Assembly (NCBI GenBank): GCA_945878925.1
Contig: CAMDXE010000009.1
Span: 1-32,770 of the forward strand
Length of the DNA: 32,770 bases
Source: Chitinophaga pinensis
GTDB taxonomy: Bacteria; Bacteroidota; Bacteroidia; NS11-12g; UBA9320
Direction: 5' to 3'
Positions 19,028-30,983 of this stretch are shown here, piece by piece. Position 1 is the stretch's first letter; each line of letters opens with the position of its first letter. The translations under genes were made by a program, and so were the position numbers. The notes below the pieces were generated by a model. It had not been told where the DNA came from. It was given only the letters and a program-made list of their open reading frames with translations, and ran no database searches.

Positions 19028-20080
19028 ATGAAAAAATACCAAATTATCATTTACGGCTCCTACGGCTATACCGGAGAATTAATTGCAGAAGAAAGTTTAT
19101 CTAAAAATCTTACAGTTTTATTGGCAGGCAGAAATGAACAAAAACTCAAAAGTCAATCTAAAAAAACCGCTTACCCTTTCAAGGCTATTGACTTGAGCAA
19201 TCCTAAGGAATTAGTAGAATTATTAAAACTAGGAGAAGTTGTGATGAATGCTGCAGGTCCTTTTAAAAATACAGCAACTCAAATGATAAATGCGTGCATC
19301 GAAGCAGGCGTTCATTATCTAGACATCAATGGCGATGTTGACGTTTTTGAAAGCATAAAAACCTTTGACAAAAAAGCGCAATTGGCCAATATAATGCTAA
19401 TGCCCGGCATAGGGTTTGATGTAGTTCCCACCGATTGCTTGGCTGTTCACTTAAAAAATAAAATGCCTGACGCCACGCGTTTAAAAATTGCCTTTGCTAC
19501 CATTGGAAGTTCAGTTTCGCATGGGACGGCTACTACCGTAGCAAGCCGTTTGGGCGAAAAGGCTTTGGTTAGGATTGATGGAAAACTCACTCCTATTGCC
19601 TTAGGCAAAAATGGCTTGTGGGTTGATTTTGGTGAAAAACGTTTATTTACAATGAGCATTCCATGGGGCGACTTAAGTACTGCTTATGAAAGCACTGCTA
19701 TTCCAAATATTGAATCGTATATAGGCGTTAAACCAAAAGTTTATAGATTATTAAAATTTCAAGGACTCATTAATTGGATGTTGCGAACCCATGTAGTTAG
19801 AATGTTAATTCAGAGACGAATTGATAAGAAACCAGCTGGCCCCAACTTCGAACAACGAAAAAAATCCTATTGCTATGTGTGGGCCGAAGTAAGTAATGAG
19901 CGCGGCCAACGCCTTTCCATCCGAATTAAAACCCCCGAAGCCTACAACTTAACTGCCACTGCCAGTTTATTAATTGCGGGAAAAATATTGGGAGGCCAAT
20001 TCGCCACAGGGTTTCAAACCCCTGCAAAAATGTATGGCGAAAAATTGGTATTTGAAATTGAAGGGGTGAAGGAAATTTGA
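19028..20080 (+). CDS. Saccharopine dehydrogenase NADP-binding-family protein
   Basis: IIIYGSYGYTGELIAEESLSKNLTVLLAGRNEQKL Rossmann start; VMNAAGPFKNTATQMINACIEAGVHYLDINGD; MPGIGFDVVPTDCLA. Confidence 0.88.
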   Translation: MKKYQIIIYGSYGYTGELIAEESLSKNLTVLLAGRNEQKLKSQSKKTAYPFKAIDLSNPKELVELLKLGEVVMNAAGPFKNTATQMINACIEAGVHYLDINGDVDVFESIKTFDKKAQLANIMLMPGIGFDVVPTDCLAVHLKNKMPDATRLKIAFATIGSSVSHGTATTVASRLGEKALVRIDGKLTPIALGKNGLWVDFGEKRLFTMSIPWGDLSTAYESTAIPNIESYIGVKPKVYRLLKFQGLINWMLRTHVVRMLIQRRIDKKPAGPNFEQRKKSYCYVWAEVSNERGQRLSIRIKTPEAYNLTATASLLIAGKILGGQFATGFQTPAKMYGEKLVFEIEGVKEI

Positions 20081-25128: not shown

Positions 25129-25183
25129 ATGTATTCCTTTGAAAATTTGCGCTTTGATAAAACCTTTGAATAAAAAAATAATT

Positions 25184-27929
25184 ATGAAAGAATTTAACAT
25201 CCTCAAACCTCTAATCTTGCTTTTTGCTCTCTTTATTTCAATCAATTCAAACGCCCGAGGGCCGCGTAAAGATTTAAACGCTGATTTTAATGATGCTCAA
25301 AGAAAAGAAATGTGCGAACTACTCGATGCATGGCTCACCACATATTTAATAACTATGCATGGAAATGATTTTGCCAGAATGCATACAACCAATGATTATT
25401 TAAGATGGCATAGAGACCATTTTATTGATTTGGAAAGATTTATTTTAGAACAAGATCCAAATGGAACCAAAGGGTATGACCAATATGTACCATTTCCTAA
25501 ATGGGATCCATCTAAGGTAATTCCTTCTTATTTCAATGGATTTGACGCCAGCGGAGGTAATTATGATAATATTTCTTCTAAATGTGGAGGAGGCAGTGGT
25601 TGCAGAACAAGAGAGGATTATAAAAATACAAATCCCGGGTATAAGTTTAACCAAAGTGGATTTTTTACAACAAGCCCGAATATTAATATACCGCTGCCAA
25701 GCCGATATAGTCCTTCCGGTACTTTATGTTCTTTTATCGGTACAGATTCTAATTGGGGAGGAAGTTCTCGAACATTTGATTTTAGCGATATGGCTGATTT
25801 TAGCGATAATCAACAGTATTTATATCATAATAGAGGCCATGTTGCTTTTGATAGGGGGGGGTACAACGATTCAACGTTCACAAATGGGTACTTTAGGCCC
25901 GAACCGCGCAGCTGCCGTCTTTTTATTCTGGGCTTGGCATGCATGGATTGATGATATGTGGTGGAGCTGGGATGCCTGCCACAGGCAGAATAATGGAACA
26001 ACTATTATTGATGCTTATGACCTGGCCACTGGTATTACGATTCCCTCAGGAACTACAGTAACCTGGAATACGGCTGGTAATGTAAAAAAAATACAGGGTA
26101 AGGTAATCGTAGAACCCGGTGCAATCCTGGTAATTGAAAATGGACAAATTGTGGAGATGCTAGATGATTATTATACCGATCAAGCCTGTGGATTTGAAGT
26201 AAGGGCCGGCACCGGCGGACTCATGGGTGGCATTTTACTTATAAGAACCGGTGCTATACTAAGAGGTATCACATCTATGGGGCTTCATAAAACATCAGGC
26301 TTAGGAGCCAATAAAAGCACAGATAAGAATACAGGACTTGATATTTACCCTGATGCAAAAGTTTTTTACCTCTCACAATGGCCGGGAATTGTGGTAAAAG
26401 GTGATGCTACAAAGGATGCATTGAGTTCCATTCAGGGGATGGTAATGATTGATGGCAGTTCAGGTACTGTATTAATTCAAAATGCAAAAACCGCAATTAC
26501 TTCTGAAAATGGTGGCAGAATTACCTGTACGAAAGGAATTTTTAGGAATTGTTCTACGGCTATCGAACTTAAGCCTTATTTAAGTCCTTCCGATAATGAA
26601 GTAAGCGGTTCAAATTTTACCGAAACAACTTTTGAAGTAAATGATCATATTTCGCGATACTTTACAAACGATAATATGTATATGCATTACAATCATGATT
26701 TTCATGATGTAATCCTTGTAAAGATGACAAGAGTTAGAGGGGTAGATTTTGCCGGATGTAAATTTTTGAATAATGATTTACATATTTATGCCGTAGGCCA
26801 TAACAATACCCGGGGCACAGGCATCAAAAGTATTGAAAGCAGCTACGCCTTACATAAAAATGGTTTGGGTACGATGAACTCTCAAACCGGCTGTCCTGAA
26901 TTTGCAGGCTCAATTCAATGTGAGTTTCAAAACTTATCGTTTGGTATTGATGCTACGGTAGCCTCTGGCACTTCAGTCCGAAATGAAATCGGGATACAAC
27001 AAACAATATTTACCAATATACATGATGCAGTTTCAACAAATGCAATTGATAATTTAAAAATTTTTGGGTCCACATTCAGTTATGATATTGCAAATGCTAA
27101 GTTCCCACCAGGAGTTCCCGGCTCACACATGCATTTTATAAATACAAGCCAAAACCATCAAAATATAATTTTTGATAACACTTTAACAAGTAATGAACCT
27201 ACTGGAACTTTTGTTTCTATATTTTGCTCTTCCCTTACACATGAATTTTCCAAAGTTCAGAAAAATCATTTTTTTGGTACCTCAATAGCGCCATCAGATG
27301 CAATAGGTGTTGAAGTAAATGGAAATAACTTACAAACGGATATAAAATGCAATGATTTTTATCAACGCTTTAATGCTTGCATCTTGAATAGAGGAGTATT
27401 AAAAACCCAGGGTAGTTCCTTATTATCGGCAGGTAATCGTTTTATTACTGACGCTTACCCGGCCTGTACAATAGACCCTGAGCAACATTTGAAAAATGAT
27501 TTTGGCGCAGGTGCTTTCACCTATTTTTATAAGTCAGCGATTCTTAATGAAGAGCCAACATGTGCTACCTCAACAATTATTACAACTGATATTGGTCTGT
27601 TGGGTATTTCTCCAAATGATGTCAATCAGGAAAGTGCAAAACTTTGTGAGTTAAACTGCCTTGGCAGAGGTTTAAGTGTTCGTACACCGGAACAAAAATC
27701 CATGCTTAAAATTTATCCGAATCCTGCCAATACCAAATTTACTATCGAAGTACTAACCCCTGTTGGCACTCTTAAACTTTATGATGCCATTGGTAAATTG
27801 GTTTGGACCCAGTATATCGAATCCACCTTTACAGAAGTGGATGTATCCCAATATCCCAAAGGCATTTATCAGGTGGTGCTGGAACAAAAAGGGATAATTA
27901 ACACCGCTCAAAAATTGATAGTGAAATAA
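25184..27929 (+). pseudogene. T9SS-secreted tyrosinase-like (CuA/CuB) + beta-helix protein, split by a frameshift at an 8-G tract (track ORFs 25139-25951 and 25536-27929)
   Basis: CuA motif RWHRDHFIDLERFI; CuB HNRGHVAFDRGG | TTIQRSQMGTLGPNRAAAVFLFWAWHAWIDDMWW lies across two frames; C-terminal T9SS domain IYPNPANTKFTIEV...YDAIGKLVWTQ...YPKGIYQVVLEQ...QKLIVK. Confidence 0.8.
25854..25861 (+). repeat. Homopolymer run of 8 G at the frameshift point
   Basis: GATAGGGGGGGGTACAACG; removing one G joins the two frames. Confidence 0.9.
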
Positions 27930-28005: not shown

Positions 28006-30983
28006 ATGCGGATACTCTTTTTATTGATATGTTTTTTTAGTTACAATCTTTTATCAGCCCAAGGTTGGGATTGGGGGATTGACGTGGCTCAAAAGAAAGG
28101 CTTACCTAGGATATTTAATCATCAGGTTGATAGCTTTGGTAACAGTTATTTAACTACAAATGGCAATGGCTCTAATGATATGGTCTTAAAATCAACTAAT
28201 GGTGATTCCGCTTCTTACATTAAATATGTCCGAAAACTTATAAAACTTAATAGGAAAGGCAAGAAAATATGGGATAAATCTTTACCACCTGGTAATTTTA
28301 TATTTTTATTAAACCGGGAAAATGAACTATACATCATTCTTGAGCAAACAAGAAGCTACTCTGATTTTAAATTTGCCAATAAAACTACCAAAAATCCAAT
28401 CTCTCCCAGTTTGTTAAATAAATATTATTTATTAAAATATGACAAAAATGGAAATGAAAAGGATTTAATTGAACTTTTTACCTTTCTTATCGCCTTTCAT
28501 TTCTGGATTGGTATCATATAAAGGGTAACCTGCTAATTTTAACTATTAACAGAAACCGAGACTCTAATGATTCCTTAATGTTTAAAAATACCACTATTCC
28601 ACCTAAATTTAATTACAGATATAGCGACCGGATAATTGCCTGCATTGATTTAAAAACTTCAAACCTAAATTGGTATAAATCCTATGCTTTTGATAAATAT
28701 GGCTCCATTGGGCAATATAACTGTTATTTAGATAACAATTATATCTATCTGAATGTTAATTCTATAACTAGCGATGGATATATTTCCCGCCCCCGATTGC
28801 TAAAACTGGATTATTCAGGCGATACTATTATTTCGAAAACCTTTACAGGTACTGTGCCTTCAAACAGAGGTTTACATGTTATTACAAAGAGTAAAAATAA
28901 TGATATACTGATACGGATTGGTATGACAGATACTACGTATCTCGATAATATACAATTCCCTGTAAAGAGGGGTTTGCATAAGTTTGCAATAGTTTGCATG
29001 GATAGTAATTTAAACTATAAATGGCATTGGATGCTTGATTGCGATAATTACGGCACTAATACTGATTTAGTGACGGACAATGATGGCAATATTTTTGTTT
29101 CTACACATTTATTTGATACTGCTTATTCAGGAAACTCCGTTTTTTATGCCGACTATATAAGCATTTTTCTGAACCCGATATTTAAATTAGATAAAAATGG
29201 CAAGTTGATTGAAATAATAAATATAGATGTAGATCAAACTTTGGGGTATGGATACTTAAACATGGATAAATACTCCAACCTATACCTTTATGGCTCCTAT
29301 GCAAATTTTAACAGCCAAATACCCAGAAGCAGCATCCAATTTGGTGATTTTAGATTTCAGGCTTCCTCCAGTACTCAAAATGCCGGGCTATTTTTAGCCA
29401 AATACAATTCCCATAAGCTCCAAATATCCAATAAATCCCTTTGGTGCCCAACGGATAGTTTGGCCGCAGATGCCGATACCATTTATAAATTTTTCAGGTG
29501 GGTGGTGGATGATACCTTAACTTTTTGGGGTAAAAAAATTAATCCAAAATATAATGAAACGGATAAACATAAAGTAACTCTTTTTGGCTATGAAAGGGAT
29601 AGCTGCATGAGTAGGAGAACTGATACATTTAAAGTGTACATACCCCCTGTGGCAAAATTGGATTATTTTGGCATTGCTTGCCGCTATAACCCGGCTATAT
29701 TTAAGGATAAAAGCATTATTGGCTTATTGCCCAATTTATCTTCAAACATTAAGGTAAACTATGGCGATGGGATAGATACGGCTATCAATTCATCCTTATT
29801 TCAATTAAATAATGTGCAAATAAAACACGCTTATATCGATACGGGAATTTTTAAAATTACCTACATCGTAAATTATAAAAATTGTTCGGATACGTTTGTT
29901 TCATCAATCAGAGTTATAGATGCTCCAAAACCTGGATTTGAACTTAGTGAATATAGTGGCTGTGCACCTTTAAGAGTAAAAGTGAAAAACACCTTTGTTG
30001 GTATGTGTGATAGGATATTATGGGAATATGATACCAGCCGGCTTGTGCAAGAAGATAGCTTGTATCAGAACAAAAAAATTGAATTTATTTTTGATAAACC
30101 AGGCAATTATTCCGTAAAGCAAAAGCTATTCGCCCCATCGGGTTGTGTAAGTGAAACCACAAAAACTATTTCAGTTTTAGATGGGTTTAGGGGGAAGGAT
30201 AGTTTGCTCATAAATTATGTAACTGTTAGTAATCAAGATGAGATTACCATAAATTGGAGGAAACTCAATAAAGCCAAAGAATATGAAATATCTGATGGCA
30301 CAAGGTCAAAATTTACAAGAGATACGAACCTTGTCGTTACTAATTATTATACATCCAAAAATAGCTACAGCTTTTCGGTTAGTGGTTTAGATACCTGCAG
30401 AAATTTAATAAAGAGTGATATTTCTAAAACCATTTTGCTAACTGGTTTTTCAGATACTTTTAATAAATTTTCGGTAATCAATTGGTCTCCTTATGAGAAA
30501 TGGCCAAATGGTGTTTCTGAATATTCTATTGAATATTTCAACAACCAATCCAATGTTTTTGAAAGCCTTAGTAATTCGTCATCTTTAAATTATACTGACA
30601 ACCATTTTTTAGAATTAGATAATTCTTTAATTGAAAAATGTTATCGAATAGTTGGTCATCAATCCTTGGGTTCAAATAAATCAGCAAGTAACATTCTTTG
30701 TTTAAAATATCAACCAACCATCTTTGTACCCAATTCATTTAGTCCTAATGGTGACGGGCTAAACGATAAATTTGAAATTGTTTCAATGGGTTTAACTGAA
30801 ATTAAAGTTGAGATTTATAATAGATGGGGTGTATTGCTTTTTGAAACAAATAATGAAAAGAATTACTGGGATGGGACTTATCAAAACACCTCGGTTCCCA
30901 TTGGAGGATACATCGTTTTAGTAAATGCAAAATCAAATCAAGGATCTTATCATTATTCTGGTTCAATTAATATTTTGAGGTAA
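28006..30983 (+). pseudogene. T9SS type B sorting-domain (CHU_C) surface protein with PKD-like region, split by a frameshift near 28473-28520
   Basis: Signal peptide MRILFLLICFFSYNLLSAQ in ORF 28006-28521; remainder in ORF 28578-30983; C-terminus FVPNSFSPNGDGLNDKFEIVSMGLTEIKVEIYNRWGVLLFETNN...YWDGTYQNTSVPIGGYIVLV. Confidence 0.75.

Follow-up and report, generated by a model that had tools for sequence, protein, structure and literature searches.

The window, i.e. the whole 32,770-nucleotide stretch of DNA that was analysed, is the entire contig C9 of a draft environmental Bacteroidota genome (2.4 Mb in 203 contigs), and it contains a gene for a tyrosinase-like protein whose coding sequence is split between two reading frames at, or immediately beside, a tract of eight Gs. 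We give an even chance to the view that the split is a recent loss-of-function allele of a rare, dispensable accessory gene. In our best reading of the evidence this gene loss ranks first, an assembly error second, phase variation third and recoding last. As it stands, the locus is one more interrupted accessory gene, and the modest point of note is a rare family of T9SS-anchored tyrosinase-like proteins that is broken in every known copy.

The 5' part of the gene (frame A; 25184–25951, forward strand) was delimited by ORF reading, a PF00264 match and alignment with orthologues. It encodes a signal-peptide-like start, the CuA region (TMH..., HTTNDYLRWH) and the first two of the three CuB histidines (YHNRGH). 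Its likely start codon is the ATG at 25184, not the TTG at 25139 from which the first-pass annotation had the ORF begin, and its stop codon ends at 25951. According to the orthologue alignment, true homology extends up to ~25852 and the remainder of frame A is an out-of-frame tail. The 3' part (frame B; ~25857–27929, forward strand) supplies the last CuB histidine (FWAWHAWIDD), a long middle region that matches no Pfam family and a T9SS sorting tail (PF18962/TIGR04183), and shares 45% identity with one of the orthologues (G051, residues 15–684). The ATG at 25536, previously given as the beginning of this second ORF, is meaningless because upstream of 25857 that ORF reads the first half in the wrong frame. 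The more general description given in that annotation, with CuA and the first CuB histidines in one ORF and the rest of CuB and the sorting domain in the +1 frame, agrees with the ORFs and with the PF00264 and PF18962 matches. Frame B is free of stops for 690 codons and otherwise unblemished, which indicates that the lesion is recent; the third frame contains 46 stops over 25855–27929, which indicates that frame B is a coding frame that was kept by selection until recently.

The eight Gs occupy positions 25854–25861 and are the only G run of at least seven in the window (base check and run scan). Homology confines the frame switch to the 25 bases (25853–25877) between HVAFD, which ends at 25852, and SQMG, which begins at ~25878. 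A mutable tract lies inside this interval, and the earlier claim that the two frames meet at this tract is borne out to the extent that the site is at or next to it; because the eight Gs make up about one-third of the interval, the tract is the likely, if unproven, site of the switch.

The Pfam tyrosinase model (PF00264; cut-off 22.6 bits) scored 25.1 bits on the 5' half of the window gene, 41.3 bits on the G106 orthologue and 38.1 bits on the G051 orthologue. Six histidines, which we take from family knowledge to be the copper ligands (three in CuA and three in CuB), can be placed in all three copies (MHG, HTTNDYLRWH, YHNxGH and WHAW), the last of them being found in the other frame (frame B) in the window copy. 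The likeness to bacterial tyrosinases (type-3 copper proteins, PF00264; Streptomyces, Bacillus) thus consists of a PF00264 score that exceeds the cut-off for each of the three copies, of six histidines with the expected CuA and CuB spacings, and of FWxWHAWxDDxWW, which resembles the FWLHHAxxDxxW motif. However, the window protein is very divergent, has an extra long middle region and a T9SS tail, and is encoded in two frames. The best match of the tyrosinase-like protein to a solved structure had an E-value of 0.002, and an AlphaFold2 model, run on three sequences only, was uninformative (mean pLDDT of 33.9). The end of frame B matches PF18962 (Por_Secre_tail; 44.7 bits, E = 1.7e-11) and TIGR04183 (E = 3.1e-10), i.e. 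it carries the C-terminal sorting domain of T9SS type A cargo; the difference is that in the assembled window sequence this domain is not in the same frame as the signal peptide (judged by eye).

Two orthologues were found, both in the same order and in other genera: one on contig C16 of genome G051 (JAQSCZ010000016.1, 'MAG: bacterium isolate U-2019 MAG006') and one on contig C4 of genome G106 (CANFLS010000004.1, 'MAG: Flavobacteriales bacterium isolate Jr-11may16-137'). The CuB region of G106 lies in one frame, reading YHNRGHISFDINSFGSIAEQSQMGNLSSNRASAVYVFWLWHAWVDD, and that of G051 is likewise continuous. Since both orthologues read across the frame-switch point, the window sequence represents a single ancestral gene that has been split, as the first-pass annotation had proposed in describing one protein from signal peptide to T9SS domain; two separate proteins ending at the frame-switch site, which it had named as a refutation, were not found in the comparison. 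The alignment also showed that the G tract is absent at the corresponding site in both orthologues (2/2). Each orthologue has a lesion of its own: in G051, the N-terminal part with a signal-peptide-like stretch is frameshifted relative to the rest, which starts just before MHGDNF, and in G106 an in-frame TAA follows TNQSCDI. A lesion is thus found in all three known copies, each time at a different place, and the kind of lesion differs between G051 and G106. The gene is rare, being present in 3 of the 108 genomes of the order and in none of the six same-genus genomes searched. No further match was obtained in a sample of 395 genomes of the class, a pattern search from the two-row alignment returned the same two orthologues and none beyond, and no relatives were found in viral contigs or on plasmids. 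The assemblies behind the three copies are drafts or derive from metagenomes. The G051 contig has a coverage of 8 according to its name, and lesions there may likewise be errors.

The adjacent gene is affected as well. Downstream of the split gene lies a CHU_C-type T9SS gene (28006–30983, forward strand), the product of which ends with a CHU_C domain; in both genomes that carry an orthologue of the split gene it is a single ORF, and in the window it is divided into 28006–28521 and ~28480–30983. Its frame switch is apparently near T5 (28475–28479), where there is no long homopolymer. In both orthologous loci the conserved neighbours, an AraC-like regulator upstream and this T9SS protein (~1000 amino acids) downstream, are intact; in the window, no AraC-like gene was found directly upstream of the split gene.

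Under the gene-loss reading, a single, ancestrally intact gene, the product of which is a tyrosinase-like (type-3 copper) protein secreted and anchored by the T9SS, would have been interrupted by a recent one-nucleotide change in length at or beside the slippage-prone G8 tract. In the assembled sequence, translation ends 29 codons beyond the tract. A product that stops there lacks the T9SS sorting tail and the middle region as well as the last CuB histidine, and neither activity nor surface attachment is expected of it. We infer that the lesion arose by slippage, that it is present in the organism itself as well as in the assembly, and that the frame is not restored by any mechanism. A dispensable gene in the course of being lost would be expected to show independent lesions at unrelated places, and PMC3711429 lists frameshift sites that differ and are not conserved as a criterion for pseudogene clusters. 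Loss is further favoured by the rarity of the gene, by the finding that all three copies are broken while the genes flanking the two orthologues are intact, and by the frameshift in the adjacent T9SS gene of the window. What speaks against it is a guaA gene split at an A9 run in the same assembly, which makes a consensus error possible, the draft or metagenome origin of all three copies, and the clean frame B, which is also compatible with a switchable gene or with a sequence error in a gene that is intact.

It is possible, with a probability clearly below that of loss, that the count of eight Gs is wrong and that in the organism the tract has a length that keeps the frame and the protein is full-length. 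The clean frame B is in keeping with such an error, and guaA provides a precedent: this single-copy housekeeping gene (sole strong match in the genome; one frame in 11 of the 11 relatives with a full-length match) is interrupted at ~18060 of contig C17. Since de novo GMP synthesis cannot normally do without GMP synthetase, the guaA break is probably an artefact of the data. The assembly thus does contain indels at homopolymers, also where real loss is unlikely, and the breaks cluster at its longest runs. However, a 542 kb sample contains 13 A/T runs of nine and 83 A/T runs of eight that lie deep within ORFs and leave the frame intact, and assembly error needs several further errors to explain the neighbour break near T5 and both orthologue lesions. 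The genome has 10 G tracts of at least eight: that of the window, a second G8 tract (C12, 20417–20424) that interrupts another T9SS gene (its homologues in the genus mostly form long, undivided ORFs), three that are coding and in frame (C4, C62 and C130), and others that are intergenic or unclear. Two of the five clearly coding G8 tracts (C9 and C12) are thus broken versus ~1 of 97 A/T runs of 8–9 well inside ORFs (Fisher P = 0.006), a comparison of very small counts from a low-sensitivity screen that fits slippage in vivo and slippage in the data alike. The C12 split keeps alive slippage at G8 tracts, be it cellular or an artefact of sequencing or assembly.

The same tract led the first-pass annotation to propose a phase-variation candidate, in which slipped-strand mispairing at G8 would switch the gene so that it is full-length (on) in some cells and truncated (off) in others. 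We consider this unlikely. The tract is real as assembled, is intragenic and lies in a gene for a secreted protein, the C12 tract offers a second case, and G9–G12 tracts are present in same-genus genomes, several of them just upstream of genes for secreted or T9SS proteins. The switch itself is unsupported: the tract is missing from both orthologues, the lesions in these and in the neighbour are of other kinds and do not lie at long tracts, guaA is broken at A9, the coding G9–G12 tracts inspected in the relatives are in open frames, and two in-frame G8 tracts of the assembly lie in housekeeping-type genes. Slightly less probable still is a wider version, in which T9SS surface proteins of the genus would be controlled by G8–G12 tracts acting as contingency loci and the tyrosinase-like and C12 proteins would both have been caught in the off state. 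This would amount to poly-G phase variation in an uncultured lineage of the Bacteroidota, in which phase variation usually proceeds by DNA inversion. The poly-G contingency loci of Campylobacter, Helicobacter and Neisseria (e.g. PMC6321876, PMC2823697) are similar in that an intragenic G tract goes together with a change of frame in the gene for a surface protein, but the window gene differs in that the tract is not conserved, the orthologues are broken at unrelated places and the locus is known here from one assembled sequence. A search of one literature collection found no paper joining phase variation, T9SS and homopolymeric tracts, so switching by tract length, if true, would be new: it would suggest that T9SS cargo is subject to slipped-strand phase variation in environmental Bacteroidota. 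Ribosomal frameshifting or transcriptional slippage at G8, yielding some full-length protein, appears very improbable. A homopolymer does sit at the frame junction and frame B is stop-free, but the orthologues are without the tract and need no frame change there. Programmed frameshifting, for which a conserved site is the criterion (PMC3711429), was rejected since no conserved frameshift site exists among the homologues (2/2 orthologues read through).

The background of breaks was taken from codon-model frameshift screens that covered 542 kb of the assembly and returned mostly false positives at normal gene boundaries; they missed the window's own known breaks, and the background rate is therefore a lower bound. 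The guaA and C12 breaks survived screening, guaA being the one clear housekeeping break in the 542 kb. Apparent breaks in metH and in an aminotransferase gene were rejected after all frames had been read.

Several homopolymer and repeat features were also observed elsewhere in this genome and its genus. Runs of 9–11 G (or C) occur directly 5' of genes for T9SS or secreted proteins in same-genus sequences (loci L092, L094, L095, L099 and L102) and are possible promoter or leader tracts. A pair of orthologous genes from two same-genus species (L101, 2599–2607; L107, 2571–2580) has G9 and G10, respectively, at the same place, where adjacent As compensate (G9A4 versus G10A3) and both genes are in frame. 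Finally, a repeat of the CCTCAA/CCTCAG type is found in an otherwise intact class-III-like aminotransferase ORF on contig C21 of the assembly that contains the window (G000; L073, ~19340–19450).
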